From Hondaea fermentalgiana (lineage: Eukaryota; Sar; Bigyra; Thraustochytrida; Thraustochytriidae): a stretch of DNA of 38,460 nt. The stretch spans positions 4,298 to 42,757 of the forward strand of contig NPFB01000054.1 in the NCBI GenBank assembly GCA_014084085.1. The letters run 5' to 3'. This document shows, piece after piece, positions 3,488-21,472 of the stretch (position 1 is the stretch's first letter; every line of letters starts with the position of its first letter). Under the pieces are notes generated by a model. The model ran no database searches. It was not told the DNA's origin and was given only the letters and a program-made list of their open reading frames with translations. A program made the translations under genes and the position numbers.

Positions 3488-6400
3488 TCACTCAGAGGCG
3501 ATTAAAAAGCTTCCGAGACTTCTGTATGGTGCACTTGTGTCACCGCCGTAGCGAGCCAGCACGTGAAAGGTGCCTTGCATTTGTGGAACAAGCTTGACGT
3601 GAATCAAACCTTGGGGGTCTGCCTGTACGTCAATGGGAGTAAATCGCCCACCGTGAGGGTCCTCAATGAGCACCTCCGGTGTCTTCGAAAGTGCTCTCCG
3701 GATGGGTGCCCCGCAACTATCACGCAAATCGACAGTCATCTTAACCGTGCGCTTCGCTTCCCCAATGACCAGACCCTGCTCAACAATGACGGACGATTCG
3801 AGTGACGCAAGAATATTGCGTATTGCTACGTTCTGCACACGCTGAACAGACGACATGACAATGCCTGTCGACGCCGTAAAGCCCATCCATGCACGTCCAC
3901 TATCTTTGGCAATGGCATCAAGGTCAACACAAGCGCTCTTTTGCGCTTTCGCGCCCCCGGCAGAACATTGTCCCTGGTCGACCTGTTCTGGCTCCCATAC
4001 GTTGACCGTGAGCTGCCAGACACCATCGAGGTAAATATAGACTTTGCGGTCTGCACGCGAGTAAAAGACTCTCAAATTATGCCTCTTGCCATCTGCCGCC
4101 GATGGAAGCAGAGGCGAAGCCGCAAAGCCAACTTCGGGCTTCGACTGCCCGTTGACCAAGACATGCAGCTCGACATGCTCAGTCGTCGATCGGTACAGGA
4201 CGACAGCAAAACTGGGGCCTGGGATGCCCGTGTACCCGTTGCACGGGGAGTTAGAGCACCGCTCGCCCATTGCCTGAGGCCCGCCATCTCGTTGGACGAC
4301 GAATGCAATACCATCACCGCCCCCAAATGTCGACGTGTCCTTGAGCTCAAAGTCGAAACTTGCGTCAAAACCGTCGCCCACCATGACCTTTTCCTGCAGC
4401 CACGCTGCAGCAACCTCGTCGGTCTCACCCTTGGTCAGCAAGAGAACCCCCGGCGAAGTCATGCTCGCTGTACCTTGCAAGGACCACTTTGCCGATGCAG
4501 GGGGAGGCGCTGGCAGCAGCGCGGGCATGCAAGCAGGCTCGTAAAGACATGCGTTGCTGCCGACAGCCGTGACATTGTAAATGCTGAGCTTTTGCGTCCA
4601 CACAAAACTACCGACGCCGACCTTAAAAATGCCCCCAGGAACCGAAGCGCAAAGCTCTTGGACCTTTTCTGCCGCATTGTACAAGCGGCAAGCGAGTTCG
4701 ACGCGCCGTTCGAGTAATCGGACTGTGGTTTCAGGTAAAGACATTGTGGCGTTGCCAGGGATCACCATGTCCAGTCCCGTAGCGGAGAGATCTGTCACCA
4801 GCGGAATGTTGAGCTGCGGCGCGTAGTTGCTCGGAAGGTAATACAAGTATTCGCCCGTAGGGTCATCAAAAGTGAGGTTTAACGCGTACGCGTCAACCCA
4901 GATTGGAAAAGCAAACGGATTGTGCAGAACCACCTGAACAGCGAGATCGATTCCCTGCTCCACGAGTGACTGCCAGGCCGTGCTCCAGCCGTCGACATTG
5001 ACCGTGTTGAAGACACCGACAAACTCGTCCATGGCTGAGCTATTGGCGCCCGAGGGAAGATCTTTGGCAAAGCGAGGTGGAGGCACATACGGCCGAATGG
5101 CTTTACCCGTCTCTCCTTCGAGAAAAACTGCCTCGAAGTTGACTTGAATCCGTGATCCTTCTGGATTGCGAAAGCCTGCGGCGACAAGAATATGTGTCTC
5201 CGTCTTGCCTACCATCTTTTCCAGCAACGTGGAGATAACGCAATTGTGCCGAGTTGCAGGATCCGAGATCGAAGCTTTACTGCAACTTGCTGGCGGCTTG
5301 TCGCCATGCCCAGAAGTTTCCTGCTTTGCGACCAAGGTCGACAGAATTCGTGAGCTTTCATTTCCCGGCAAGATAAGGTCTCCGGCGTTCACATGGCCGT
5401 GTCCAAAAAATAAAGCTTCGCGCGGCGTTGCCGCGTCGGCTCCGCCAACCAAGTACGCCACCTTGCAGTCCATATCCGGTAAAACAGCCGTCACGGGCGA
5501 TGGATTGTGCAAGAGCATATTCACTTCAAATGACGCAGTCGTCGACGTCGTGTACACAAGTCTCCATGCCCCTGTGCTTGCCAGTGGAAACCACCACTGC
5601 TTTGCCTTGGGAGTCGGCACAGGTCGTCCGTCGGGCGAGGCAGCCTCAAACTTGAGCATCACATCGGCATCTCGGAGTAGCGCGGGGAGCATTGATTGCT
5701 CATGCCTTTCTTGAGGGACGAAAACGCGAAAAGAAATGGGCACCACCGAGTCCAAGAGTGTCTGCAGCGCATTTCGCAAGAGCTGCACGTCTCGAAGCGT
5801 CATCGTAAACGGCACGGACACCAAATGCGAGACGGACGAGTCTACCTTGATGTCAACCGCGGGTACGGAAAAGTCGATCATACGGTTGTGCACACCCGCG
5901 TTGAGCGCAAAGGCAATGGGTGGCGCTCTCAGCTGAAGGCGACGAAAAAAGCGAGCGTCTAGGGCGAGCGACCCCAGCAAGTCGTAGATGAGCGTGTACG
6001 GAGCGCCATTCAGATCCTTGGGGACGGCAGGGCACAGATTCGGAAGCACACACGGCACGTTAAGCTCAAGTACTCGAGCGGCCCCGGGAGAAGTCCGGCC
6101 ACCAAGAATCTCGAGTGAATACTCTGCAGGCGCGCGATCGCGCGTCGAAACTGCAGTCAAGTTTAATCTTACGTCAATGATCTCGTCTGCAGACCGAAGG
6201 TGCACGTCTGAGCTGAGTTTATTGACCAGCGATCCAATGAGTCTTGCAACTGCAGGCGCTGTATTTGCGTCGACCTGATAGTCCACCTGAAAGTCGGACA
6301 CCAAGCCTGTATTCGCAAAGACCCAGGCGCTCGTCTTCAGCGTACCCACGTCTCCAAGCACGAGTTCGAGCGCAGGGACATCGAGACGAAGCTGACCTGC

Positions 6401-9301
6401 TTGGCGTGGGGATGGCGTACAGTCCAGGGATAATTTCACGTGGTCAGGTCCAGAGAAGACATCGAGTGAAACGTCTTCAGCATAGACATTGTCAGAATCA
6501 GCTGCGCTCGCATTTACCTGATTGCCGGATGATGTGTTTGAAGGGCTGAGAAGCGCTGCTCCAACGTAACCTATCGCCGCGCTAAGCAGGCTGTAGCTGC
6601 TGTCACCACGAAACGATTTGCTCAGAACTTCTGCCTGGACGACGTTCCGTAAAGCCTCACTCGTGGATGTTTCAAAGGCCACCGTGCTGGACACACGCGT
6701 ACCACTGCTCATAAAAGTCGAAAGGTCAGGTGTACTGACCTCGAGCGTTGCCCCGGGAACAGGCAAGAGGCGGAGACCCGGCAGCTCGCGTATGTTGAAC
6801 CGAATATTTGGTAAGGCGAGCGCGAACTGAACGGGAGCAATTTCGGCCCGGATGCCAGCACCGTCTGGATCGCAGGGCGTGCCTGCCGTAGCGCACCCAA
6901 AGTCCAAACCCGCGCCGGCTGGGCCAGTGGACTTAAGGGATGCAAAAAGAGCGCTTGCTTCGTATATAATGCTTGCTTGGTTCAATGTCGATGAAAAAGA
7001 TTTCGAAGACTCGACGATCTGCTTCGGAGCAACGAGTCTATGCAGCGCCAAGAGCGTCAAGTCGATGCACTGGCTTTTGCGCAAGGTCAGTGAGGTGTTA
7101 CCATGTGCGCGTATCTCGCGCACAAGTGCTCCAAAGCCCGCTCCAACATTATCATCTCTCCACGAGAAATCTACCTGAACGGTGTTTCGCGTCTTTGGCC
7201 CGAGTTCCATTGAGGGGACGCTGAGCTCCATACGAACCTTGTGGCGTGCGTTTGAGATTACCACCGGGTCACCACCCACACAGCGCGGAGCCCAGCGGAC
7301 ACGGAACGGCAATGTATCGTTGAGGGAGGAGAAAAGCACATGAATGCCCGCAGCAACTTCGGTCGTGGACGAGCGTGCGTACAGGTCGATGGAATCAGAA
7401 GCCTCGTCGCGAGATCTCTTTAATCGGAGCTCAGGTTGTTTAATAGCATGGCGATTGAGGCTCCGAGCAGCTTGGTTGGGCGTTTCATTTGTCAGGGCAT
7501 ACGATACATTCCGGAGAATTGCCGAAATAAGCGTCACATCGTCACGAGAAGAGCCAACGAGAACAGGTTTGAGCTCATTCGCATCATAGTTGGCCGCGAG
7601 AAGCTGGTCCCAGAGCAGGCCAGGACGCTGAAAGTTCACCGTGGCAGATACTCCACGTCGTGGATCAAAAATTGTGCCATTCGGTACGCTGATCTCAATC
7701 GTGTGCTCCCCAAGAGAAGCCACGTCCATGACAACTTCGGGAATAAAGCCCGTAACGTTAGCCGTCAAAAACGTCTTGAGGTCGACTCGCCCCTCCGTTT
7801 GCGACGAAGTAATATTCTCGACCCGAACTTCGTGGACTAGAGACTGCCGCGTCGCAGTATGTATCGGATCTTGTAGCGCGCGAGCGCTCAGGGGCACCAA
7901 CTCCACGCGAACGGGGTCCATCTTGTCAAGAACACGCGCAAGGAAGCTCGTGTCGACGGCTTGATGATCCGCGTTCGTCTTTACGTACATGAAGCTGGAG
8001 TGACCGCCGTGAGCAACCACATATCCGCTTGCAACGGTCTGCATTGTCGCGAGACTCATGTTTTGCGAGCTGCTGAGCACTGATGCCTCAAGCGCAAAGG
8101 TGCGACTGGCATGAAAAGGTGCAATTTTCGCTTCAGCGACGAGGCCAACGTCAGGATTGTGAACAAGATTGGCCATGATTGGGACAAAGGACTCGTTGGA
8201 TGCATAGACATCGAGCCGGCCTAGATTTGCTGTCGTGAAATTGGCGCGCAGCTCGGGCAAGGTGTCGCTGATCGTGACGCTCACCGTTGAATTAAAGGAC
8301 AGGTCTGTGCGCGGGTTCGCGGTTTCGTGAAAGTCGACGCTCACGAGATCAATCAGGAGATTTGACGAAGCACTGCTGCTGCTGCTGCTGCTGCGAGAAA
8401 GTCTTGAATTGCGTGAGGGTTTGGCCGCATCCACGTGAAAGGAGATGCGCTGGTCGATGTGCTTGCGAAAAGGAATCAAAAAGAGATTGATGCCGACTTG
8501 GGCGCGCACATGCACATCAATAGTTAGACCAAGCTCATTGACCATGAGCCACGCCACATTTGCAACGCGGAGAGCCGCTTGATCATCGGCATTGTCAACA
8601 TGCATCATAGGATATGCAGCAAGGCGGACCGCACTCTTGCCAAAATCAAGCCACCGTTTTCGCGAACTTCCGTTCGCGTCGGTAAAGACGGGCGTGAGCG
8701 CATTTGTGCGGAAGAGGAGAGAATCATTGTGAAAGGCCTCGACCTCGACATGGTCGACCATGAGACTGACCCAAGAAAAGGACGGAAGATCAATCGATGC
8801 TTTGACATTGAAGGGAATGTCGATGTGTGGTTTGCTGTTGGTTCCCGTTCCGAAAAGCTCGATGCTCTCGAGCTTGACGCAGCTATCATTCGCACCTCCG
8901 CCGCCATCGCCATTGCTGCTGCCGCTCGCATCGCACTTTTTGTAGACTCCGAAGAGTTTAACTCCAACAAAGATTGCGAGACCAAGAACCGCCAGCAGAA
9001 AGACGCCGCAGGTCATTGCACAAAGGCAGACTCGTCGTCTTGAGCACCACGGCTTGCCTGGCGCCTCGGCACTCTCGGGCCCATCCTCCTGCGCCAGCAG
9101 CGGCACCTCGAGGACCTCGATGGAGCTCATCGCGCCTTCCTCCTCATCCTCGTCATCGTCACCTTGCGCCGCCACCACCCTCTGAGCTCGGCCTGAGCCC
9201 TCTCCGCGCCGCGTGCGTTCCTCGTCCCGCCCCTCGTCCTCGTCGGAGTCCGCGAACGGGTTGTACGCGGCGTCCATCTCGCCCGAGCTTTCCTGCGCCA
9301 T
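3488..9301 (-). CDS. Giant single-pass membrane protein with C-terminal L-type-lectin-like and filamin-like domains
   Basis: Intronless, 1937 residues from the chosen ATG at 9301, which lies in a perfect GCCGCCATGG context; the frame stays open further upstream but runs into the divergent gene. Residues 1-90 are acidic, cytosol-type sequence with an NPF tripeptide at 14-16. Basic residues then precede one transmembrane helix at about 91-117. The remaining roughly 1800 residues should be lumenal or extracellular (type II) and carry many N-x-S/T sequons. The middle is beta-rich and repetitive in pattern, with short N-P-[DSF]-x-[GPF] motifs reminiscent of LEA14-like repeats; that comparison is weak. 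About 1603-1830 resembles a legume/L-type lectin: W-S-L-Q-G, F-x-F-x-L, G-G-G-D-G-I-A-F-V-V-Q, and a strand ending V-Y-I-Y-L-D-G. About 1833-1937 resembles a filamin/Ig repeat ending G-T-F-H-V-L-A-R-Y-G-G. A Ser run is encoded by an AGC repeat (8373-8394). Likely a carbohydrate-binding surface or vacuolar protein; not matched to a named gene. Confidence 0.75.
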   Translation of the reverse strand: MAQESSGEMDAAYNPFADSDEDEGRDEERTRRGEGSGRAQRVVAAQGDDDEDEEEGAMSSIEVLEVPLLAQEDGPESAEAPGKPWCSRRRVCLCAMTCGVFLLAVLGLAIFVGVKLFGVYKKCDASGSSNGDGGGGANDSCVKLESIELFGTGTNSKPHIDIPFNVKASIDLPSFSWVSLMVDHVEVEAFHNDSLLFRTNALTPVFTDANGSSRKRWLDFGKSAVRLAAYPMMHVDNADDQAALRVANVAWLMVNELGLTIDVHVRAQVGINLFLIPFRKHIDQRISFHVDAAKPSRNSRLSRSSSSSSSASSNLLIDLVSVDFHETANPRTDLSFNSTVSVTISDTLPELRANFTTANLGRLDVYASNESFVPIMANLVHNPDVGLVAEAKIAPFHASRTFALEASVLSSSQNMSLATMQTVASGYVVAHGGHSSFMYVKTNADHQAVDTSFLARVLDKMDPVRVELVPLSARALQDPIHTATRQSLVHEVRVENITSSQTEGRVDLKTFLTANVTGFIPEVVMDVASLGEHTIEISVPNGTIFDPRRGVSATVNFQRPGLLWDQLLAANYDANELKPVLVGSSRDDVTLISAILRNVSYALTNETPNQAARSLNRHAIKQPELRLKRSRDEASDSIDLYARSSTTEVAAGIHVLFSSLNDTLPFRVRWAPRCVGGDPVVISNARHKVRMELSVPSMELGPKTRNTVQVDFSWRDDNVGAGFGALVREIRAHGNTSLTLRKSQCIDLTLLALHRLVAPKQIVESSKSFSSTLNQASIIYEASALFASLKSTGPAGAGLDFGCATAGTPCDPDGAGIRAEIAPVQFALALPNIRFNIRELPGLRLLPVPGATLEVSTPDLSTFMSSGTRVSSTVAFETSTSEALRNVVQAEVLSKSFRGDSSYSLLSAAIGYVGAALLSPSNTSSGNQVNASAADSDNVYAEDVSLDVFSGPDHVKLSLDCTPSPRQAGQLRLDVPALELVLGDVGTLKTSAWVFANTGLVSDFQVDYQVDANTAPAVARLIGSLVNKLSSDVHLRSADEIIDVRLNLTAVSTRDRAPAEYSLEILGGRTSPGAARVLELNVPCVLPNLCPAVPKDLNGAPYTLIYDLLGSLALDARFFRRLQLRAPPIAFALNAGVHNRMIDFSVPAVDIKVDSSVSHLVSVPFTMTLRDVQLLRNALQTLLDSVVPISFRVFVPQERHEQSMLPALLRDADVMLKFEAASPDGRPVPTPKAKQWWFPLASTGAWRLVYTTSTTASFEVNMLLHNPSPVTAVLPDMDCKVAYLVGGADAATPREALFFGHGHVNAGDLILPGNESSRILSTLVAKQETSGHGDKPPASCSKASISDPATRHNCVISTLLEKMVGKTETHILVAAGFRNPEGSRIQVNFEAVFLEGETGKAIRPYVPPPRFAKDLPSGANSSAMDEFVGVFNTVNVDGWSTAWQSLVEQGIDLAVQVVLHNPFAFPIWVDAYALNLTFDDPTGEYLYYLPSNYAPQLNIPLVTDLSATGLDMVIPGNATMSLPETTVRLLERRVELACRLYNAAEKVQELCASVPGGIFKVGVGSFVWTQKLSIYNVTAVGSNACLYEPACMPALLPAPPPASAKWSLQGTASMTSPGVLLLTKGETDEVAAAWLQEKVMVGDGFDASFDFELKDTSTFGGGDGIAFVVQRDGGPQAMGERCSNSPCNGYTGIPGPSFAVVLYRSTTEHVELHVLVNGQSKPEVGFAASPLLPSAADGKRHNLRVFYSRADRKVYIYLDGVWQLTVNVWEPEQVDQGQCSAGGAKAQKSACVDLDAIAKDSGRAWMGFTASTGIVMSSVQRVQNVAIRNILASLESSVIVEQGLVIGEAKRTVKMTVDLRDSCGAPIRRALSKTPEVLIEDPHGGRFTPIDVQADPQGLIHVKLVPQMQGTFHVLARYGGDTSAPYRSLGSFLIASE

Positions 9302-9521
9302 GGCGGCCGCCGACGGCAGCGGCAGCAGCAGCTGCTGCGGAGGCAGGAGCGGGGCGTGCGGCCGCGCGGGCTGCGCTGCGCCACGCGTCGGGCCGGGGAG
9401 GGCCGGCGCCGCGGTCGCTCGCGGGTCTTGAGGGTCTGCCGCGGGAGCTAGCTCCCTCCGACTCTGCGCCGGGCAACGATCGCCGGCAGGCAAAGATATT
9501 TCCCTCGCGCTGGGCGGCGCC
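9302..9521. promoter_or_regulatory. Short divergent promoter, lectin protein / mini-carrier
   Basis: About 220 GC-rich bases separate the chosen starts of two diverging genes. At 9521-9524 the sequence CATG gives an ATG on each strand, so frames in both directions could begin there. I chose the downstream minus-strand ATG at 9301 because of its ideal context, which leaves this stretch for both promoters. Confidence 0.45.
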
Positions 9522-10166
9522 ATGTCAGCAGAACCCGTTTCCATCGAGCGGGCCGAGGCTCCGCGCCGGGCGCGGCGTCGCTGCGCGCGGGCGGCGGCGG
9601 CCATGTTCTGCCTCGACTACGCCCTCGCGTTCGCGGTGCACTACGTTCTGTGCGGCTCGCGCCCCGCGGCTCCGGATGCAAACACGCCGGCGACGCCGGG
9701 CTCGGCGGACTTGACGGGCGCGACGGGCGAGAAGAGCGACGGCGGCGTCCCACGCTGGGCGCGGGAAACGACAGCGGGCGCCGCCGCGGGGCTCGCAGCA
9801 GCCGTGGCCCTGTACCCGTTTGACGTCTTGCGCCAGAGCGCCGTGCAACGAGGCACGTCCTCGTTTGCAGCGAGTACTGTGCCATTCATGGCCGTGTACC
9901 TTGGCATCTTCTTCACGGCGGTCCCATCTGAGCGCCCGGCAGAATTCTCCACAAAAGCACGCACTGCAGTGGCTGCGGCCACTGCAGCAGCGGTGGTGGA
10001 GTTTCCGCTTGACAAGGCGAAACATGCTATTGCAGGAGGGAATCGTGGAATGGCTCTTGCGACGTCGGCGGCGCGAATTCCACTTTCTGCATTCCTACTT
10101 CTTGCATACGATCACATGCTTCGCGCTGCACAGCAACGACGTCAGCTCGAGGCCACGAGAAGTTAA
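9522..10166 (+). CDS. Short mitochondrial-carrier-like protein with two signature repeats
   Basis: 214 residues from the ATG at 9522; an in-frame ATG at 9603 (Met28) is an equally plausible start. Mitochondrial carriers (SLC25) are built of three repeats of about 100 residues, each with a P-x-[DE]-x-x-[KR] signature ending the first helix. Two signatures are visible: P-F-D-V-L-R at 99-104 and P-L-D-K-A-K at 162-167. Each follows an Ala/Gly-rich helix and is followed by a second hydrophobic helix (about 117-134 and 181-199). The last part, A-R-I-P-L-S-A-F-L-L-L-A-Y-D, looks like the end of a carrier repeat. Only four carrier helices are clear, plus a short hydrophobic patch at about 30-44; the protein is well under the usual 300 residues. 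The Arg-rich N-terminus could be a targeting sequence. Substrate unknown; it could be a degenerate, non-transporting relative. Confidence 0.65.
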   Translation: MSAEPVSIERAEAPRRARRRCARAAAAMFCLDYALAFAVHYVLCGSRPAAPDANTPATPGSADLTGATGEKSDGGVPRWARETTAGAAAGLAAAVALYPFDVLRQSAVQRGTSSFAASTVPFMAVYLGIFFTAVPSERPAEFSTKARTAVAAATAAAVVEFPLDKAKHAIAGGNRGMALATSAARIPLSAFLLLAYDHMLRAAQQRRQLEATRS

Positions 10167-10657
10167 TGGGACACCACTGACATCAGAAACTCGGCCTGTT
10201 TCGTTGCCAAGAGGAAAGTAGGAAGGAGACTCAAAACAATGAATCGAAAGTAGGCCTGTCAGAGTCTGTGTCGACTGGAATAGAATTTCCCCTCGCCAAC
10301 GGTTCGTGACGTAGCACGAGACTACCGAAAGCGAAAACCTTGCAAATTACGGCAGGAAGCGCCTTCTCGCCGACGCTTGCGACAAGTACGAGAAAGACAA
10401 TGGTGAAACGTCTATCAACGACTTTTGTTGCGACCATTGGATGATTTATCCAGGCCCATTGGAGGCTTTGTATCCGATGCACCAATCAATCGACCATCAA
10501 GGTACACTGAGTCGAAGACAGGAGAAAGAAAGGGAGAAGGATTCGCTTCATCATTTAGAGTAGGCCTCTGAGAGCATCGCAAGAGCTTCCGTGCAAGCAG
10601 GCTCTTGACCTGTAAGCTTCTTCTTGATTGCCTGTCTGCTACACTCGCGCGTCGAAA
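10167..10657. other. Convergent 3' intergenic region
   Basis: Lies between the stop codons of two converging genes and should hold both 3' untranslated regions. AGTAGGCCT followed by a purine-rich stretch occurs twice (near 10250 and 10559), a weak repeat. No gene seen. Confidence 0.5.
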
Positions 10658-13204
10658 TCAAAGAATGGCTTGCGCAAAGCTTTCGGTCATCAAGGGAACC
10701 AGAAGACTATGATAGTCTTCTGCAAACTTGACTTCAATGTGGTCTAGAACTGGCGGTGGCGCTTGGCTCGCGGTGGCTCGCGAGAGATTGCGGCGCGCAA
10801 TTGTGACCACCATCGATTCCCCGGGGACACCTCGCAGTCCAAGACGTACACCACCTGACTCCCATTTGATGGCCGCAAAGCGATGCTCCGAGACTGGCAC
10901 AAGCTTTGCTGCTTCGCCAAGAATGGCAATCTGGGTTCCCTTGTCATTGTCACCAAGCCAGGGCGCGGCATGAAAAACGCGAAAATCACTTGCCCCGCTC
11001 TTGGGCACGCGCATGGGATGCGTGCCGTCAAAATCGCCGAGCTGGGTGAAGTTGCGAGGCGCCCCGTATCCTGTGTAGGCTAGGTACTTTTGGCTCGGGT
11101 CCGCGTCCACGGGCAGCATGGCGGGAGTGACAACCGTCTCCATCTGGGAGAGGATCGAGACGACATGAACCCATTTGTGGCCATCCACATACGTATGCGT
11201 GCTAGAGGTAGCACAGATCTCATGACCCTTGGTTGACAACGTCGTTCCAATGTTAACATTGGGCTGGGCGCCACCAAAAGCCGCGTCTATAAAACATTGG
11301 TCAATGGCCGTAAGCGGGCGAGAGGGCTGCAAGAGACGCCCGTCAGGGGCGCACATGAGGTCGATGACTCGCTTGTCGGCATGTCCCACCTTGTCTCCGA
11401 CTTGCACGGGTCCAGCGCTGTAGACTGCAACAGCAGCGAGCATCTCAGCATGGGGCTCCTCCGCCTCGCCATACGGGTTTCCGGGCTGCACTTGAGACGT
11501 CCAAAAGACGTCTTTTGCTGGCGCGAGGTCGAGAGACCATAACAGCAAAGAAGTTGTCTGAATGTAGTACAGACAATACGGAAAGCGGCAATTCTGAGTG
11601 TTTCCAGGGTGGTAGTCATCTCCAGCACGAACTTGAGTCACTGCCGGGTGCTCGATACTTTGGAGCACCATGCGTGGCAATGGCATGCAGTATTGGATAG
11701 AGACGTTGTAAGCAAGCGCAGCGCGCGCCATTTGTGCCAGCCACGAAGCCCCAAGCGTCGGCTCGCGCATGAGATGCGATGGCATGCCCTCGAACTCGTT
11801 ATAAAGCCAGTCCTGCTCGTAGACAAACATGCCCTTTGCACTCATATTGCGCATGAGATCGTCCCAGAACTCTTGATCCAGAGGTACAGAGTAGGAGTTC
11901 TCGACCTCAAAGTGATACTTGCCCCCGTTGTCGACATTGTAAACATTGTCGGGCGACCAGTACCGGTTGTGCAAAAAGAGTGGCCAATCTGTGCGTTTGG
12001 AAAACTCGGCCAGGCCATGCGGGAAGACGTCGTCGCGAGCCTCCCAACGCTCGACGCCGCCGCCTTTGCCGCGTTTGTACCACCAAGAGTCAAGCTGGAT
12101 GTAGCGGTATGGAATGTCCTTGCTCTTGGCGTCCTCATAGACTTGAAGCATGGTGTCCTCGTAGGTTGCTCCGTTTTCTGTCTTGTAGTAGTAGTAAGCG
12201 CCGTTGTCTGTAATGTAGCCCAGATAAGAGAGAGAAATGTCGCGCGCGATGGCTTCTTGGCGCATGTCACCAATGTCTTGGTACGCAAGCATAGCTTCGC
12301 CCAACTGCTTGCAAGCGACTGTGACACCCGCGCCGGAGATGGTCAAAATGGTGCGGAGCTCAAAACCAGGAGGCACGTGGTCGATACTTCCAAGAAGACC
12401 ACTTGCAAAGATCTCGCCCTCGCGAATATCGAGACCTTGCACAGTCGTTGCCATCGAGCCCGCGAGAGGGCCAATTGCAAGATTCCAGCTCATGTGCCGA
12501 TCAAAAAAGATCATTGGGCCAGCGCGCTCGCCCCCGAACTCGTGAGTTGCGTATCCGAGCGCATCAGCCGCGCTCCGCTGCATAAATCGATCATTGAAGG
12601 ACAAGAGACCAATGTTCAGCTGCGTGAGATAGTCAACATACTCAAGTGGACGGTCATGTCGGACTTTGTCGTAATACGAAGGCGCAATGGCGAAGCTGGG
12701 CCAGTGAGAGGCGGCATGATTGCTGCTATGCACAGAAGTATCATTGGCGCCCTGAGGCCAATTTTGCACGAACACCAAGGTTTCGCTTTCCTCGTAGCGC
12801 AACACGGCCGTTTCAAAGGTCCATGTATCGTCGGCGTTTCCCTTGCGCTGCCAAATGAAGCGCGTCTCTCGAAAGTGTCCCAACTTGTCGGTGCCGTTGC
12901 AGGTCTTGACGTCTTTGAGTTTTAGATCAACGCCAGCCGTCAGCGTCTGACCGTCTACAGTCGTACTCACAGGCAAACTTGTAAAAATTGCAGGGTCGCC
13001 GTGCTTTCCGTCCTGCATATCAAAGCCAAGCGTGAAGCTGCCCTCGTCGAGGTCCAAGGTGAAGCCCAGCTTGATGGGGTCCATGGCAGTTTTCGGCGCT
13101 CTGCCCCGAGCCACGGCTGCGAGGCACGCTAGCGAGAGCGCCAAGACGAAGGCAGTCGCCCATGTCTGGGAGCACGCGCGTCTGCGCTTCTCCGTCGCTG
13201 TCAT
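10658..13204 (-). CDS. Secreted GH36/raffinose-synthase-like glycoside hydrolase
   Basis: 848 residues from the ATG at 13204. This start is preferred because it places a cleavable-type signal peptide at the N-terminus (basic residues 6-10, hydrophobic 15-32); the upstream extension has a non-signal sequence. Residues about 40-300 form a beta-rich N-terminal region and about 320-650 the likely catalytic barrel. Motifs of clan GH-D (alpha-galactosidases, raffinose and stachyose synthases) are visible. I-Q-L-D-S-W-W-Y at 369-376 resembles the barrel strand with the 'DDGW' pattern. Y-E-Q-D-W-L at 462-467 carries the likely nucleophile Asp465. R-A-G-D-D-Y-H-P at 526-533 resembles R-A-S-D-D-F-x-P of raffinose synthases and holds the likely acid/base Asp. 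Several N-glycosylation sequons support secretion. It probably cleaves or transfers alpha-galactosyl or related sugars; the substrate cannot be read from sequence. It follows the receptor gene in the same direction, 254 bp away. Confidence 0.65.
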   Translation of the reverse strand: MTATEKRRRACSQTWATAFVLALSLACLAAVARGRAPKTAMDPIKLGFTLDLDEGSFTLGFDMQDGKHGDPAIFTSLPVSTTVDGQTLTAGVDLKLKDVKTCNGTDKLGHFRETRFIWQRKGNADDTWTFETAVLRYEESETLVFVQNWPQGANDTSVHSSNHAASHWPSFAIAPSYYDKVRHDRPLEYVDYLTQLNIGLLSFNDRFMQRSAADALGYATHEFGGERAGPMIFFDRHMSWNLAIGPLAGSMATTVQGLDIREGEIFASGLLGSIDHVPPGFELRTILTISGAGVTVACKQLGEAMLAYQDIGDMRQEAIARDISLSYLGYITDNGAYYYYKTENGATYEDTMLQVYEDAKSKDIPYRYIQLDSWWYKRGKGGGVERWEARDDVFPHGLAEFSKRTDWPLFLHNRYWSPDNVYNVDNGGKYHFEVENSYSVPLDQEFWDDLMRNMSAKGMFVYEQDWLYNEFEGMPSHLMREPTLGASWLAQMARAALAYNVSIQYCMPLPRMVLQSIEHPAVTQVRAGDDYHPGNTQNCRFPYCLYYIQTTSLLLWSLDLAPAKDVFWTSQVQPGNPYGEAEEPHAEMLAAVAVYSAGPVQVGDKVGHADKRVIDLMCAPDGRLLQPSRPLTAIDQCFIDAAFGGAQPNVNIGTTLSTKGHEICATSSTHTYVDGHKWVHVVSILSQMETVVTPAMLPVDADPSQKYLAYTGYGAPRNFTQLGDFDGTHPMRVPKSGASDFRVFHAAPWLGDNDKGTQIAILGEAAKLVPVSEHRFAAIKWESGGVRLGLRGVPGESMVVTIARRNLSRATASQAPPPVLDHIEVKFAEDYHSLLVPLMTESFAQAIL

Positions 13205-13458
13205 CTTGTTGGACGACGAGGTCAAATTCCGCGGGCTAAGCTCGATTGCGATTTGGTCTCGCGCCCCCCAAGGGAGTCGTGCGATCGATCCGTCGCTGGA
13301 GCGGAGGGAAAAATCTTTTTCTTTTTTTCTTGAAAATAAAAAGATCTGCAATCGATCCAGCTTTTGCCAGCCTGAGGAACACACACTTCAGTTATCTTGT
13401 TTCTACATGTTGAGATTTTTACTGCAGCCTGAGCATCATCTAGTTCTAGGCCCAAGGC
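13205..13458. promoter_or_regulatory. Intergenic, promoter of GH36-like gene
   Basis: 254 bases between the receptor stop codon and the glycosidase start, both on the minus strand. On the minus strand it contains an A-rich stretch (complement of 13312-13340) just upstream of the glycosidase start. It must hold the receptor 3' end and the glycosidase promoter. Confidence 0.4.
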
Positions 13459-16400
13459 CTAATTCAACGCGACCGAATTCGTGCCTTTGGAGGTGAGACC
13501 GTGCGCCGTCTGGTGGTAGCCTGACGTGTTGACGGACGTCTTGTTCGTCGAGAAGAAACGGTGCTTGGCTTCTTCAGAAAAGAGGTAACCGTAAACCTTG
13601 GGGCCAAAAATGAGGCCCAACGCATCGAGCGTGCAGAGGATGATCACGAGAGCTTTGACGAGTCCATCGAGACTAGGAGTGTTGATGGTCACCATGAAGA
13701 TTGGAATGCCGAGGACGAAGAGCTCCAAGTAGCTGACGAGCGCCATGGCGATAAAGCGACCCTCTGAAAACTTTGTTGGAACATTTCGCCCCTTGTACGC
13801 CAGGTAGTTTCCCCCAACCAAGCAGACGACAATAAAGCAAATGAGAGGAATCAGAAACGGTATAGGATTTTCGCACGTGCAGATTCCCACAGACTGGACT
13901 GGCGCACCCGTGACTGGATCCGTTTCAATGATTGTTCTCTTGAAACGGAGTGGATCGACAATGAGCCAAGCTAGTAAAGTGACGAGCACACACGCGAGAA
14001 ACAGAAGCTCGTATTGAAAAAGCTGTCGATTGGAGATGGAGATACGCTTCAATCGCTTGTTGTTGAAGAGCTTGTTGATTCGCCACGTCTTGAGCAGCAA
14101 CGGTACGACGATGATACCAAACCCCGCAAAGAAAAAAATAGGAATGAGCATGCAATTGATATCCAGACTTGCGTACACGTCGATCTCATTGTACAGATCC
14201 GCGTTCTCGCCAAACAGGACGCTGTCGTCCTTGGTCACAAGAATGGCTGTGTGCACTGAGATGAATGCGCCGACCAAGACCTGGATGAGAAAGACAGGCG
14301 AGGAAACGTGGATGATCGCCGCACGTCTCTTTCTCACGACCCAAACAAGCAGCCCAAGGATGCTTGCCTCGAAGAGAAGCACTACAATAGTAATGACAAT
14401 CTTGGACGCATCCGACATGACGCCAATGTCGTGCTGCGGCAGCATCACGGACTGCCCGTTGCAGGTTACTGCCGTTGCTGCCAGCTCGACGTCTGCCAGA
14501 GCGGAGGAAGAGCGCTGAGGTGCGTATGCCATTTCAGCCGAGGCGAGCGGACGCTGCAACGTATCAACGTCCAGAAACCAGTGTAAAAATGTCGCAAACT
14601 CTTCGCCTTCGCTGAAGACGCTGTCGTCTTCGTTGCTATCGTCCTTGCAAGCCTCGTTGAGGAAGTTTGTGGGAAAGACCGCGTCCAGAACTTCGACAAA
14701 GGGCCAGCACGACGTAGAAACGTTGCGTGAAGGAACCGATGACGAAATCTCGATGTCTTCAATGCATTCCAGAATCGAAGATTCGGAAATCGCGAGTGTA
14801 TCTCCGTCGTCCGTTTGGATGGAGATCATCGAAGCGAGTGAGCCGAGCTGAGAGACTAGAGGAATCACAGCCATTGAGAATGGAGTGCTGTACACTGTTG
14901 CGAGGAGAGCTTCCGGCGAGTTTACGGTCGTGGCTGATGCTGAGAACGTAAAGTTACTCTCGCCGCTCGCTGCGCTGAGCTGCGCGCTGAAGCGGTCCAT
15001 CCAATCGAGGCTGGAAGCGTCGTCCGAACGAAAGAGTCGAATCATCTCATTGGGGAGCGTCGCGGTCGTCTCTTTGTCCACGGCGATAATGCCCGAGGCG
15101 TCCCAGCGAGATATACTGCCATCCAAGATGGCCGTCAATGTTTTCACGTCCATTGAGACGGCAACGGTCGAGTAAGAGCACTGATTCTGGCTTATCGCTC
15201 CACAAAGATTGAAAACAATCGCGTGAGCCACGCCCGTAAAGCGCAGACGACGCAGCCCAAGTTCGATGGCCATGGTGCTCTTGCGCGAGAGCATGTCCGT
15301 GATCCTGTCGGCAAAGTCAATCAGCATCGCAGGCTGAGCAATCTCCACATCGGTCCACGAAGGCGCGTCAGACGCGATCGATACGTTGAACGTGAGCGTG
15401 TCGCGTATAGACTTGTATGCAGGCTCGACGAGGGCCATCACCTGATCAAGCACTGGGTTGATATCAAAGTGCACGTTCACTTTGCGAGGTGCTTCATAGA
15501 CGAGCTCGCCATTGCACTTGAAACTGGTGCGAATTCGTTCGAGAACGGCGGCACTGACCTCTGAAGGAAGGCTTGCAAAACCAAGTGTTTCCGCCAAGGT
15601 ACTAACGACGGTGTCGGTGTAAAACCACGTCAGAAAGTCGAACGTAGCCTCGCGATTGGCGCAGGTTGCGCCCTCTCGCAAGGTGTCCTTGCGCAGCACA
15701 AAGTACGTGTAGCCCACGACAGGCCAGGCGAGACGGCCTTTTGCACCAAAAATATCGGCAGTCATGCTTGTGGAGTTGTCACCATTATTGCCAAAATCAA
15801 GACCCTTTTCCATGACAGCAAAGTTGACAGATTCTGATGACGCATGCACAATGGTCCCATCTTTAGAAATACCTGCTTTCTGAGCGTTCATCTCGTCAGC
15901 ATCTGCGAGTACCGCGTACGAGACGGACCCAGGTGTCAAAAGCACCGATGAAACAAGGCCCATAGTTGTGTCTTTCTTCTCGAGATTCACTGCGTTCCAC
16001 GTCGACTTGGAGGAGACACCGACTTGGATTTTAAAGGCTTCTTCAAACGAAGAGAGTGCACTGCGAAAGATCTCCGTCGTCCCCGAACCGTCAGCTCGAA
16101 CCATGACCTTGATTTTTCCATGCTGCTGCGACGCCTCGTGCAGCGCGTCTTCACGACCAGGATTGAGATCCAAGATGTCGCTATGATTCCAATAGGCGAT
16201 CGACTCTGGCTCACAGCCATCAGTTGCGGGATAATCACATTGTCGAAAAATGCGACTCAGAACTTCAGTGCTTAAGACGAGATCTGGGACATTTTCTAAG
16301 TTGTAAATGGGGACGACCGCACCAGCCACGGACGGGTACATTTCCAGGTCGCTGTATTCGTTGTATGAGTCCCACGTCATGACTGCATCGCTCCCAGCAA

Positions 16401-16863
16401 GGTCAATCACGGAAGGCTGGCGGTCGTCGCCACTGCTTGTCCCGTCAAAGTCAACCTCAAAGGGGTGTCCACACTCTTTGCAATATTCCTTGATGCGGCA
16501 CAATCCCTTGCTGCTACCCGTTCCAGTGTATGAGATTTGCACGTTGTTGGCCGTAAAACCATAGGCAAACATTGCCGATTCGTAGAGACGCTCCGGGAAC
16601 GTCGCTCCAGCGACTTGTACGAGGACTTCGCCGGAGCTGCCAAGAGAATTTGCATCTGCTCCTGTGAATGCTTCGCATGCCTCTGCAGCGGCCTCTTCGT
16701 TTGCATATACAGGGCCTGCAATAATACCCTTTGGGTTCAAGGCTACGCAAAGCATGAAGATGTACGAAAGGTTGCTGATATCGAGTCGAAGCATGCGACA
16801 GAGTCTGTTTGGACGCACGGCAGCGTGCACTTCCCCAATCTCGAGAGCTCGTCCTTTGCCCAT
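13459..16863 (-). CDS. Class C-type seven-transmembrane receptor with tandem PstS-like phosphate-binding ectodomains
   Basis: Uninterrupted 1134-codon frame. The start may be 16863 or, better for secretion, Met24 at 16794, which is followed by a hydrophobic signal-like helix (about residues 32-42). Residues about 78-450 resemble bacterial PstS (type II periplasmic phosphate-binding fold): V-A-G-A-T-F-P-E-R-L-Y at 84-94, T-G-T-G-S-S-K-G at 113-120, G-S-D-A-V-M-T-W at 157-164, and the phosphate-loop-like R-A-D-G-S-G-T-T at 256-263. Residues about 461-790 repeat the fold: L-D-G-S-I-S-R-W-D at 580-588 matches the PstS 'F.GKI..W' region, but the loop is R-S-D-D-A-S-S-L. Seven hydrophobic helices follow at about 822-843, 852-876, 900-925, 950-970, 1001-1023, 1037-1060 and 1067-1092. 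V-D-P-L-R-F after helix 4 and F-G-P-K-V-Y in helix 7 are GABA-B/class C-like. Probably a plasma-membrane receptor for phosphate or another oxyanion, coupling to G proteins. Ligand and coupling are inferred. Confidence 0.82.
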   Translation of the reverse strand: MGKGRALEIGEVHAAVRPNRLCRMLRLDISNLSYIFMLCVALNPKGIIAGPVYANEEAAAEACEAFTGADANSLGSSGEVLVQVAGATFPERLYESAMFAYGFTANNVQISYTGTGSSKGLCRIKEYCKECGHPFEVDFDGTSSGDDRQPSVIDLAGSDAVMTWDSYNEYSDLEMYPSVAGAVVPIYNLENVPDLVLSTEVLSRIFRQCDYPATDGCEPESIAYWNHSDILDLNPGREDALHEASQQHGKIKVMVRADGSGTTEIFRSALSSFEEAFKIQVGVSSKSTWNAVNLEKKDTTMGLVSSVLLTPGSVSYAVLADADEMNAQKAGISKDGTIVHASSESVNFAVMEKGLDFGNNGDNSTSMTADIFGAKGRLAWPVVGYTYFVLRKDTLREGATCANREATFDFLTWFYTDTVVSTLAETLGFASLPSEVSAAVLERIRTSFKCNGELVYEAPRKVNVHFDINPVLDQVMALVEPAYKSIRDTLTFNVSIASDAPSWTDVEIAQPAMLIDFADRITDMLSRKSTMAIELGLRRLRFTGVAHAIVFNLCGAISQNQCSYSTVAVSMDVKTLTAILDGSISRWDASGIIAVDKETTATLPNEMIRLFRSDDASSLDWMDRFSAQLSAASGESNFTFSASATTVNSPEALLATVYSTPFSMAVIPLVSQLGSLASMISIQTDDGDTLAISESSILECIEDIEISSSVPSRNVSTSCWPFVEVLDAVFPTNFLNEACKDDSNEDDSVFSEGEEFATFLHWFLDVDTLQRPLASAEMAYAPQRSSSALADVELAATAVTCNGQSVMLPQHDIGVMSDASKIVITIVVLLFEASILGLLVWVVRKRRAAIIHVSSPVFLIQVLVGAFISVHTAILVTKDDSVLFGENADLYNEIDVYASLDINCMLIPIFFFAGFGIIVVPLLLKTWRINKLFNNKRLKRISISNRQLFQYELLFLACVLVTLLAWLIVDPLRFKRTIIETDPVTGAPVQSVGICTCENPIPFLIPLICFIVVCLVGGNYLAYKGRNVPTKFSEGRFIAMALVSYLELFVLGIPIFMVTINTPSLDGLVKALVIILCTLDALGLIFGPKVYGYLFSEEAKHRFFSTNKTSVNTSGYHQTAHGLTSKGTNSVALN

Positions 16864-16881
16864 CTTTCCTTCCCTCCCCCT

Positions 16882-16898
16882 CCCCCCCCCCCCCCCCC
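16882..16898. repeat. 17-base C (minus-strand G) homopolymer just upstream of the receptor start
   Basis: The run of 17 C on the plus strand lies 19 bases upstream of the first possible receptor ATG, preceded by shorter C-runs at 16872-16880. In the receptor mRNA or promoter it reads as a long G tract. Its true length may be uncertain because homopolymers are hard to sequence. Confidence 0.8.
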
Positions 16899-18400
16899 TC
16901 GGAAAGAGCTTGTCCAGCTTGGTCTTCCACTCCTGAGTTGCAACGATGTCAGTCGAGGCGGGTTGTCGCTCGTCGACGGTGATTTGCGGTTTACCGAGGC
17001 GCCGTCATCGACGAAGCACGAGCAATTTTTGTTTTGTATTCCTTTGACATACTGTTTCAAAAACATGCAGCAAAACCGACGATACACATCACATTGGTCG
17101 ACTCGACAATTTTGAAGTGACGGCGCTCGGTCGAAGACAAGGTTCTTACCAACTGAGAGAACGAAGGAAAAGTTTGTTGGCTGGCTCTGCGAGCCGGATC
17201 CGGAGCAAAAGCGAAACGGGTGGACCTTTTGTAAGGCGCAGCCGCATGCTTGGCGCCATTCTACCCTTTTCAGCTTTAACATGCAACGTACGTGTTGCGC
17301 TTGCGCAAGAGATCCGGCGTAGGTTGTGACACCCCCCCCCTCTCCAAATAAGGTTGTACCGTGCTCCAACTCGCTCCGCCCCACACCAGCGGGACCGTTT
17401 TTTTAAAGCCACCTTAGCTCACAGCAGGCTACGCCTACCAAATTCGTGGGAGCCTCCGACAAAGGCGTAGTGTACTTGGTCCTTGGGGGGCGCTGAGATT
17501 TTTTGGCCCATCGTCACGCCAACGGCTCTGGGGAGCGATGAAATTTCAAAGCAAAGCTTTGACGTGAACCACCACTGACAAGGACCTCGCAAACCGCCTC
17601 CCTCGTTTGCCGACACTGATTCGGGGTTGCCCTTTAGCCATTAGCTTGCTGGCTCATCAACAACCGCATCCGGGCTGCCTAGTACGTCTCTCCTTGGTTT
17701 TCTGTGGTCAACGGCTTTCACAAAAAGGAAAGAAAAAAACCTGGATCAGAGTCGATAACCCTGCGGGGCTGAAGGAAGATATGTCGGAGGGGGAGCAATT
17801 GTCGTGCAGACAAGAACATCAGCGTCCAACTGGGCATTCGTTTTCTGCGTTCCTTCAAGCACAAAGTAGAAGGAAGATGCAACATCATTTGCGGTGTTTC
17901 TTCTGCGGGCTGTTCGTTCTCCGAGGGAGAGAGACAGCGGTGACATTTTCTGATGTGTGCCTGTACCGAGACGGATGAAATTCCAAGTTCGGGAGTTCGT
18001 TCGGCTTTGGGGCAGGTTTGGGCCTTCGAAACTCTAAATCTGAAAAATAACCGCTTGGGGATTTGTAGGTTAGATGCGAGAGTCTTCTGCGCTATGACTC
18101 AAGCTCGAGATTGAACATGATCTGACATGACGAATATTGAGGGTATGCGACGAATGACCTGGTCGATACTGGTCGAACGAGCAACAAACGACTCGTCACG
18201 TGTCGGTATTGCTGCTCAGCGAAAACTTACTTTAAGAGGGTGACGACAGATCTAAGAGAAACGGGTGGGTCGGGCAAGTCTCTGAAGCCGGCTTGCCGTT
18301 CAAGTCTGCCTTGATCCCGAATGCCCAAATTCTGCCTCAAAGCCGAACGGGTCTCCGAGTTTGGCCTGCTTGCCGGCCAGACCACTGACCAGGTTGCTCG

Positions 18401-18425
18401 CCAGCCAGCCAGCCAGCCAGCCAGC
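18401..18425. repeat. CCAG microsatellite
   Basis: About six perfect copies of the tetranucleotide CCAG, about 100 bases downstream of the exportin-2 stop codon. The same tetranucleotide (as CTGG/GGCT) recurs at 26891-26934, 27650-27662, 30310-30321 and near 32626-32640. Confidence 0.8.
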
Positions 18426-18529
18426 CGGACAACCCAGGACGGTTTCGGGGAGAACAAAAGAGATCTTGTAAGAATGAAAGTAGCCAGGCGAGGCAGAGCA
18501 GTTTATTTTTTTCTTCGCGATAGAACTAA

Positions 18530-21472
18530 CTACACGATGTTAACCTGTGCCTCCTGCGTGATGTTCTGAAAGCAGGTTGCAAAATTTGGCTTGCCGTTGA
18601 GGGCGTTTTGGATGAGGTTCGGAAAAACATTGGGCGTGGCCTGCGAGGCCTCGGCAATCTTTCTGACAAAGAACAGCTTGGGGTTCTCAATCTCCTTGAA
18701 GGAATCTCGAATCTCGGTTTGTCCGTGGACAAGCTTCGAGAACGAAGATGCGTAACCCGTTTCAGAAATCTGATCGAGCTGCTCCTCTTGCGATTCGAGA
18801 TCCACAGTAGGAGCCGGGGCCTCAAAAATGTGGAGCACGGCCACAAAAACGTTGGGCCAGAGCGATGTAGAAAGAGGTGGCGTGCGCAGTTCCGGGGCCT
18901 CGACGACAACGCGAGTGAGAGCAACGGCGCAGGCTTTTCGGTCGGTAACGCCCTTGATTGCCTTGGAGCTGGGGACCCAGACGTTGGCAAGATAGTCGTT
19001 AAAATTGAGCCCCCCAAGCGACTGCATACCCTGCTGGACATCCTGCACACCGTGCTTGCCGACCATGACTGAGATGAAGTTGGTGAGAGAGAGCGCAAAG
19101 TCCTTGCTATTCGACTGGCGGAGCGCCGTAAAGGAAAGCTCGAAGATCTTCGGCAAGTAGCCACGGTACGCTTCTGGTGGCAGGAACTCGACAATGCCAA
19201 TGAGCAGGCGGAAGGCGATGTCAACGGTGGACTTTTGCGAGAGAAGGAGGTGAAAGATGCCGAGCATGCCCTCGAGCTGCTTGGGGTTGGCGCCGACGGT
19301 CTCTGCCGCAGCTTTGCGCATGTAGGCCTCAAGAAGACGCACGAGAGCCGGATGGTTGCCGACATTACGCCAGTTGTCCGGATGCAAGAGAGGCGGAAAG
19401 AGCGAAAGGTAGCCTTGAGAGATCTTGCTTGGTCGCAGCTCGAGGAGCTGAGCAAGAATCTGAAACACATAGGGCGTGAGCTCGCTGATTTCCTGCTGCA
19501 GCACGACCTGGAAGGGAGGCATGAGGCGTTTCTCAAACTCTTCGGCATATTGCGGGTTGACTGAGCAGGCGCTGCGGATAAGCGCAGCGATGGACTCACA
19601 GAGAAAGTGAATGAACTTGGGGTTTTGCGGGTTGGCGCAAACGCGGCCCAACACAGTGTTGAGCTTGTCGAGCACGCCGTCGGTAGCCTGCGCAATAGTG
19701 GCCGGTTGTGCCTTGGTGATAATACGCATGACGGCCTTGGCGACGTACTCGTTCTCGAATCCGCCCTCGTAAGACTCGAGAATGGCAAAGAGGTTGGTCA
19801 TCGCAGGTGCCAACACGGGAGTGAGATCCTCTGCGGTGTAGACGAACTTCCTACGAGAAGAAGGTGTGGTAGTAGCCCCTGCCTGCGGCTGCTCGCGGAT
19901 CATGAAGATGCGGTCGATCGCCTGGGCCGCATAGGTGTGCACGACGAAGGAGCTAGCTTTGAGGAGGGCAACGAGCTGAGGTAAGATCTGAACGACCATT
20001 TCCTTGGGCATTTGATTGCGGAACGTGGCAAAGAACTTGATGACGTCCGCCTTGACCACGGGCTGGGAGTCGACATTGGAGGATGTGAGCTCAGGCAGGA
20101 TGAGCTGTGAGAAAAATTCGTTGACGTTGATGTTGGGGTTGACCTCGCTGACGCCGCCCACGAGTGAGTGGCGACGTACGGCGACGGCAAGCATGAGCGT
20201 GATGGCGGTGTCCATTTGGTACCAATTCTGAGACGGGTTGGAGCGGTACTCGTTGACGAGAGCGGTCACAACAGTTTCGCAAAGCTTGGTGGTCTCCTGG
20301 TCGAAATGGCGACACATTGCGCGCACGAGATCGCAGGCCATGCGCCGGCGCGTCTCGCTGTCCGAGCCTTCGATATCGCGGCGAATGTACTCTATGGGAT
20401 TGTCCTCAAAGGTCTCGTAGTCGGATTCGCGGAGACGGAGGTTCGGGACCACGATCTTTTCAATAATCTCCTGCAGAGTGCTTTGCTGCGCAAAGAGCTG
20501 TTTTTGCCTGACGTTACCGATGAGCTGTGCAAGAAACTGAAGTGCCGAGGTGACGAGGCCATCGTAGCGCGCGAGCATGGGTGTCTTGTTGAGTAGATGC
20601 CAGGTCGTGATGGCAAACTGCTGGACGTGCTGGGCAAAATCCTCCTCGTACTTTGTAAAGTAGAGTTTGAGGTTCTCGATGACTGCCTGCTGCACGAGCT
20701 CCACTTTGCCAGGCTGTTCGTCGTCGTCGGACTCGAGAGCCTTGGACTCGAAGACGAGAAGCTTGTGAAACTCTTGCATCCACTCGGTCATGTGGTCCTC
20801 AAAGAACTCGGGGAGCTCTTGCCAGTTGAGCGAGTACCAGATGCGCGTGAGAAGACGCAGGGCCGTAAAGATGTTGGTCAGCATGGCTGGGTTGCTGCCA
20901 TTGGGTTCGATCATGCCCATGCAGCTCTTGAAGAAAACAAGAAGAGGTTTTTGAAACTCCTCGAGGCAGTACTTGAGTTTGAGAAAGAGCTCGTCCGAGG
21001 CCTTTTCGTCGCGAAACATCTTGAAGAGGGTGTTAGCCGTCTCAAGAAGGCCGATGATGATTGTAAAGTCCTCGGTGGCCCCGAGCTTTTGCGTGAGGTC
21101 GGGGAGGAGTGTCTTCCAGTTGTTGGGGAAGTCGCTCTTGCCGATGATGCGAATGGATTCCCCGAGCTGGGCCTGGACCTGTCGGTTTACCTGACACATG
21201 AGCGTGAGCAGGTTGTTCTTGATTTGCTCGCGCTCTGTGGGCGCCAGCACGCCGTTGGGGTCGTCGTCCCAGTATCTCTTGACGAGGTTCTTGAAGTACA
21301 CGGATCCGGCCTGCTGCACGCCGGGCGGCGCGTTCTGCGCCTCCAGCAAGCCGAGCATCTGCACCGCGAACCCGGGCTGCGCGGTCATCTGGTCCAGCGT
21401 CTTCTCCGCCGCCCGCCGCGTCTCCGCGACGGGGCTGAGCGTGTTGCCCAGCAGGGTCGCCACATCGCCCAT
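18530..21472 (-). CDS. CSE1L: Exportin-2 (CSE1/CAS), importin-alpha re-exporter
   Basis: Nuclear transport receptor of the importin-beta family that, with Ran-GTP, returns importin-alpha from nucleus to cytoplasm. 980 residues in one exon; human CSE1L is about 971. The start at 21472 has a strong context (GACCATGGG). The N-terminal importin-beta domain is clear: R-R-A-A-E-K-T-L at about 19-26, then Q-A-G-S-V-Y-F-K-N-L-V-K-R-Y-W at about 54-68, and N-N-L-L-T-L-M immediately after. The CSE1-type core follows with F-P-N-N-W-K-T-L-L-P-D-L, E-D-N-P-I-E-Y-I-R-R-D-I-E-G-S-D and R-R-M-A-C-D-L-V-R-A-M. These are hallmark blocks of exportin-2 as I know them. The C-terminal CAS/CSE domain continues as HEAT repeats to the stop. 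The gene is divergent from SLX1. Confidence 0.95.
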   Translation of the reverse strand: MGDVATLLGNTLSPVAETRRAAEKTLDQMTAQPGFAVQMLGLLEAQNAPPGVQQAGSVYFKNLVKRYWDDDPNGVLAPTEREQIKNNLLTLMCQVNRQVQAQLGESIRIIGKSDFPNNWKTLLPDLTQKLGATEDFTIIIGLLETANTLFKMFRDEKASDELFLKLKYCLEEFQKPLLVFFKSCMGMIEPNGSNPAMLTNIFTALRLLTRIWYSLNWQELPEFFEDHMTEWMQEFHKLLVFESKALESDDDEQPGKVELVQQAVIENLKLYFTKYEEDFAQHVQQFAITTWHLLNKTPMLARYDGLVTSALQFLAQLIGNVRQKQLFAQQSTLQEIIEKIVVPNLRLRESDYETFEDNPIEYIRRDIEGSDSETRRRMACDLVRAMCRHFDQETTKLCETVVTALVNEYRSNPSQNWYQMDTAITLMLAVAVRRHSLVGGVSEVNPNINVNEFFSQLILPELTSSNVDSQPVVKADVIKFFATFRNQMPKEMVVQILPQLVALLKASSFVVHTYAAQAIDRIFMIREQPQAGATTTPSSRRKFVYTAEDLTPVLAPAMTNLFAILESYEGGFENEYVAKAVMRIITKAQPATIAQATDGVLDKLNTVLGRVCANPQNPKFIHFLCESIAALIRSACSVNPQYAEEFEKRLMPPFQVVLQQEISELTPYVFQILAQLLELRPSKISQGYLSLFPPLLHPDNWRNVGNHPALVRLLEAYMRKAAAETVGANPKQLEGMLGIFHLLLSQKSTVDIAFRLLIGIVEFLPPEAYRGYLPKIFELSFTALRQSNSKDFALSLTNFISVMVGKHGVQDVQQGMQSLGGLNFNDYLANVWVPSSKAIKGVTDRKACAVALTRVVVEAPELRTPPLSTSLWPNVFVAVLHIFEAPAPTVDLESQEEQLDQISETGYASSFSKLVHGQTEIRDSFKEIENPKLFFVRKIAEASQATPNVFPNLIQNALNGKPNFATCFQNITQEAQVNIV

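Follow-up and report, generated by a model that had tools for sequence, protein, structure and literature searches.

What might a eukaryotic cell sense with a protein that joins a bacterial-type phosphate-binding module to the membrane helices of a receptor? Such a protein is encoded in a 38,460-nucleotide stretch of the genome of the thraustochytrid Hondaea fermentalgiana, a stramenopile (contig C188 of a 36-Mb assembly), hereafter the window, by a gene (P0001) that runs from ATG to stop on the minus strand, from 16863 down to 13459. The first-pass annotation, made from the letters of the DNA, had read this frame as a class C-type receptor with a PstS-like ectodomain. We analysed its domains, its phosphate pocket, its relatives and its selective constraint. 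The features of the gene are as follows.

13459..16863, minus strand: whole gene, uninterrupted frame of 1134 aa; dN/dS 0.20 against the C172 paralogue
16639..16863, minus strand: N-terminal leader, residues 1-75, hydrophobic stretch at about 30-50
15514..16638, minus strand: first PstS domain, residues 76-450, with a complete predicted phosphate pocket
16597..16602, minus strand: pocket Thr88 and Phe89, E. coli PstS T10 and F11 (alignment A1, pocket table, conservation)
16513..16515, minus strand: pocket Ser117, E. coli S38 (invariant in A1)
16387..16389, minus strand: pocket Asp159, E. coli D56, the phosphate-selecting aspartate (invariant in A1; aligned to D56 of 1ixh)
16096..16098, minus strand: pocket Arg256, E. 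coli R135 (alignment, structure comparison, conservation)
16078..16086, minus strand: pocket Ser260, Gly261 and Thr262, E. coli S139, G140 and T141 (alignment, structure comparison, conservation)
14446..15510, minus strand: second, degenerate PstS domain, residues 452-806, without a recognisable phosphate pocket
13591..14427, minus strand: class C seven-transmembrane (7TM) domain, GABA-B-like, residues 813-1091
13462..13590, minus strand: short cytoplasmic tail, residues 1092-1134, fast-evolving

A tandem PstS ectodomain on a class C membrane domain

The motifs on which the first-pass annotation relied are present (GATFP at residues 86-90, RADGSGTT at residues 256-263 and, following membrane segment four, VDPLR), and profile searches bear out both halves of its reading. 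Pfam PBP_like_2 matches residues 79-417 with 55.8 bits (cut-off 27), as expected for a type II, PstS-type ectodomain, and 7tm_3 matches residues 817-1089 with 114.8 bits (cut-off 33.5). Seven hydrophobic segments lie within residues 813-1091, as seven helices in the class C arrangement, and the frame passes from one domain to the other without a stop. The annotation had named two results that would speak against it, an ordinary Venus flytrap or other unrelated fold and transcripts of two separate genes (on which see the next section); a Venus flytrap was found neither by profile nor by structure, and the ANF_receptor profile gave no match to the protein up to E 1, PBP_like_2 being found instead. 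Its description of the ectodomain as PstS-like holds for the first domain; its picture of a single domain does not, because a second PstS-like domain at residues 452-806 had been missed. The ectodomain is thus a tandem of two PstS folds, with a pocket in the first only. These results support a single reading frame in which a PstS-type binding protein with a complete predicted phosphate site is joined to a 7TM domain of class C. The leader is probably a signal peptide, and the true start may be Met24; in the predicted structure it is mostly of low confidence. With a pTM of only 0.43, the whole-protein model is no reliable guide to how the domains are arranged.

Two other frames of the window were noted. 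One (28603-30159, plus strand) encodes an isocitrate/isopropylmalate dehydrogenase domain and a C-terminal EF-hand. The other (3488-9604, minus strand; 2038 aa) has matches to a legume-type lectin domain and, towards the C-terminus, a weak one to a Filamin repeat; none of these reaches its curated cut-off.

The fusion recurs and is under selection

The 36-Mb assembly contains four PBP_like_2 matches, of which three share a frame with 7tm_3 and one with Kelch repeats. Besides the window gene, two further loci thus carry the same PstS-7TM fusion, and their proteins are identical to public H. fermentalgiana proteins over 1144/1144 and 1016/1017 aligned residues. The window protein itself was absent among the best 20 proteins returned by a protein search, so that no public gene model was seen for it; the best public match was to the C172 paralogue's protein, with 84% identity across 89% of the query. 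When window positions 10001-20000 were compared by blastn with the C172 copy (L018), the only match (82.8%) spanned 13566-17033. It starts within the sequence that encodes the tail and ends some 170 bases upstream of the ATG, with no match in the flanks. Because the two copies resemble each other at the DNA level in the gene and these upstream bases only, we rejected the possibility that the two copies are alleles of one locus and regard them as paralogues. They differ by a dN/dS of 0.197 over the whole frame; for its parts, the values are 0.106 (first PstS domain), 0.256 (second PstS domain), 0.246 (junction, residues 780-840) and 0.123 (7TM domain). In the tail (residues 1101-1134), identity falls to 26.5% and dN/dS is 0.42. 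A public Hondaea protein, P0002, lacks most of the leader and continues about 420 residues past the end of its match with the L018 genomic frame; it is probably a mis-predicted gene model.

Precomputed domain annotations place PstS-7TM fusions also in metagenome proteins and in Heterosigma, Endogone and Phlyctochytrium. Since two further loci and relatives on other contigs carry the fusion, it is neither due to chance nor likely to be a chimeric assembly. We therefore rejected the idea that two adjacent genes, or an assembly join, had been misread as one gene, and we give it almost no credence: the domain order is common to the three loci and other contigs, the frame has no stop and its junction is under selection. 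Furthermore, the Plasmodiophora fusions are single coding regions by transcripts according to their authors (PMC4815078).

The predicted phosphate pocket

The phosphate contacts of E. coli PstS correspond to T88, F89, S117, D159, R256, S260, G261 and T262 of the window protein. All eight are kept in the first domain, and six are among the 26 of 375 columns that never vary in a 15-row alignment (p 1.6e-6); the same columns were invariant after removal of two duplicate rows. Asp56 of PstS gives preference for phosphate over sulfate, and a D56 mutant entry is listed among PstS structure entries. Its predicted counterpart, Asp159, speaks for phosphate rather than sulfate as the ligand. Among the matches listed, stand-alone PstS-type proteins invariably read TFSDRSGT at these positions (101/101). 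The pattern [TS]FSDRSGT is read by 13 of 15 PstS-7TM proteins, the pocket being altered slightly in P0165 and strongly in P0166, and by 20 of the 23 cyclase-type proteins with complete data (n=32 in all); eight of the nine partial ones keep RSGT. P0008, of the MHYT type, has E in place of T262.

The N-terminal contacts have no aligned counterparts in the second domain of the window protein, where R-A-S-S occupies the loop positions. The profile for this domain finds it in 11 PstS-7TM proteins, nine of which belong to its building set (P0163 and P0166 lie outside it). With TIGR00975, the PstS equivalog model, the window protein scores 162.6 bits, below the cut-off of 205; the first domain is predicted to be PstS-like at the pocket and is not filed as a PstS equivalog. 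The Kelch-PstS protein of the genome (L009:955-3486, minus strand, contig C205) departs from the pocket pattern, reading TNSDRSSS, and carries a single hydrophobic segment at its C-terminus.

Relatives and origin

A profile search for relatives gave 392 matches, of which 120 were listed. Many are from metagenome contigs and were assigned to eukaryotes from their domains, and the stand-alone rows were taken as bacterial from their length and a few names. The PstS tree has 69 rows; its stand-alone sample comprises 26 of 101 listed profile hits (all 360-440 aa) and two multidomain proteins. Forty rows taken as eukaryotic lie on one side of a branch with support of 99/93, and GPCR and cyclase types are intermixed among them (seven changes for 7TM, three for guanylyl cyclase). 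The Kelch protein is placed with the bacterial rows, at the end of a very long branch. Because the eukaryotic rows group together with their types intermixed, the tree suggests a single capture of PstS followed by several changes of output, in a limited bacterial sample and with the Kelch protein outside.

For the 7TM tree, we used 21 of the 24 7tm_3 matches of the genome and 12 relatives; two of these 33 rows (L028 and P0164) were too short and were dropped. The window gene lies in a clade of seven PstS-type rows (98/97). All 14 PstS-type rows do not form one clade (four changes), and a forced single clade was not rejected (p-AU 0.0585), so that one fusion and several fusions are not told apart. 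Five sister pairs are common to the two trees, as co-inheritance of both halves would predict. P0003 does not fit: the PstS tree puts it next to L015/P0007 (93/87), the 7TM tree next to P0001/L018 (99/96). Either co-inheritance is imperfect or the trees err.

Among the relatives are 21 receptor guanylyl cyclases with a PstS ectodomain (P0018, P0127-P0134, P0137-P0141, P0144-P0147, P0149, P0151 and P0152). They come from named molluscs, annelids and nemerteans, and several are called natriuretic-peptide, speract or retinal-type cyclases. In 16 of the 18 named animal cyclases with complete pocket data, the pocket reads SFSDRSGT. These receptors, such as P0018 of Haliotis asinina, share with the window protein a PstS sensor of the same eukaryotic group, with the pocket mostly kept. 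In contrast to the tandem of the window protein, the named animal sequences have one PstS domain (P0142 and P0135 have two), and the output of these receptors is a kinase-homology and cyclase region rather than a 7TM domain; apart from its leader, P0018 spans the membrane once. The animal cyclases are possibly phosphate receptors. A metagenome protein of 1360 aa, P0016, has two PstS domains in tandem, followed by a hydrophobic segment (697-724) and by WWE and PARP domains, and is possibly a phosphate sensor wired to ADP-ribosylation.

A candidate receptor for extracellular phosphate

We think it likely that the window protein sits in the plasma membrane as a class C receptor for extracellular inorganic phosphate. 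Its outer, membrane-distal PstS domain would bind phosphate and close; the degenerate membrane-proximal domain would pass this closure on, either as a rigid relay or as a dimer interface; and the GABA-B-like 7TM domain, as a dimer, would receive it and activate one of the heterotrimeric G proteins of the cell. G-alpha genes are present in the genome. Against this reading stand the TIGR00975 score, the altered pockets of P0165, P0166 and P0008, the discordant placement of P0003, the low pTM of the whole-protein model, the absence of the protein among the 20 public matches and the description of the Plasmodiophora relatives as transporters in PMC4815078.

If those authors' reading applied here, the PstS domain would capture phosphate and the seven-helix domain would carry it across the membrane, and bacterial PstS domains do serve import. 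We nevertheless consider transport quite improbable. Both profile and fold identify the membrane part as a class C GPCR, and BPD_transp_1, the PstC/PstA-type ABC permease, had no match in the 36-Mb assembly, while 14/14 controls matched. The same sensor domain occurs on guanylyl cyclases of relatives, which indicates signalling over transport. A class C receptor for a ligand other than inorganic phosphate, such as arsenate, sulfate, an organophosphate or a phosphonate, is another alternative, since a ligand cannot be read from the fold by itself; moreover, a class C receptor whose ectodomain is Phosphonate-bd/TtrS-like is encoded elsewhere in the genome. We hold this to be unlikely, because none of the eight PstS contacts is lost, among them the aspartate that selects phosphate over sulfate. 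For the receptor just mentioned (L034:948-3758, minus strand, contig C224), the nearest NCBIfam model is that of the tetrathionate kinase TtrS, whose cut-off it misses by far.

There is also a small chance that the protein binds phosphate as a non-coupling partner and dimerises with another class C receptor that activates the G protein, in a division of labour like that of GABA-B. The GABA-B-like 7TM domain and the 24 class C 7TM matches in the genome would suit such an arrangement, and the strong selection on the 7TM domain (dN/dS 0.12) speaks against it, although not directly. This arrangement is compatible with the phosphate-sensing step of the receptor reading that we prefer.

The window protein can be compared with several known systems. 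It shares with bacterial PstS, the binding protein of the PstSCAB importer, the fold and all the contacts, but its PstS domain is duplicated and tethered to a 7TM domain in a genome without an ABC-permease match. Its 7TM domain resembles those of the GABA-B receptor and GPR156, whereas its ectodomain is a tandem of type II PstS folds, not a type I ANF_receptor flytrap; for want of the latter, we do not class it as a GABA-B receptor. In outline the architecture is already known, because PBP_like_2 and 7tm_3 in one protein are mentioned for Spizellomyces SPPG_06488 (PMC3251606) and Plasmodiophora brassicae (PMC4815078). Krishnan et al. 2012 report PBP_like_2 in one Spizellomyces class C receptor within a domain list (PMC3251606). 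The Plasmodiophora genome paper describes fusions of 7tm3 with either SBP_bac_1 or PBP_like_2, designates four proteins as putative phosphate transporters and states that its authors found such fusions in no other eukaryotic genome (PMC4815078). The passages seen of both make no mention of a tandem ectodomain or pocket. Diatom class C receptors have other binding-protein ectodomains (PMC3727952), PBP_like_2 appears among the abbreviations of PMC10445921, and the accessible parts of PMC12716839 and PMC9960496 describe neither a PstS-type class C phosphate receptor nor a PstS-type receptor guanylyl cyclase. In the open-access literature, which leaves most subscription papers and preprints outside, we found neither kind of receptor described, the former as a phosphate receptor, nor the tandem ectodomain, the Hondaea genes or the link to animal guanylyl cyclases.

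Taken across the family, it seems to us an evenly balanced proposition that PstS was captured once, early in eukaryotes, as a widespread extracellular phosphate sensor. Thraustochytrids, raphidophytes and fungi would have it wired to class C GPCRs, and molluscs, annelids and nemerteans to receptor guanylyl cyclases, with other enzymes as further outputs; in the tandem subfamily, one copy would sense phosphate and the other would be a dead relay to the 7TM domain. Eukaryotic sensing of extracellular phosphate is poorly known: the best-described sensors either lie within the cell (SPX domains) or are transporters with a second role in sensing. Thraustochytrids are used to make omega-3 oils, and phosphate supply is reported to affect their lipid yield. 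A receptor with a residue-level ligand prediction, for which E. coli PstS point mutants offer template controls, makes the question of phosphate sensing directly testable, and the same sensor on molluscan receptor guanylyl cyclases would give orphan animal receptors a candidate ligand.
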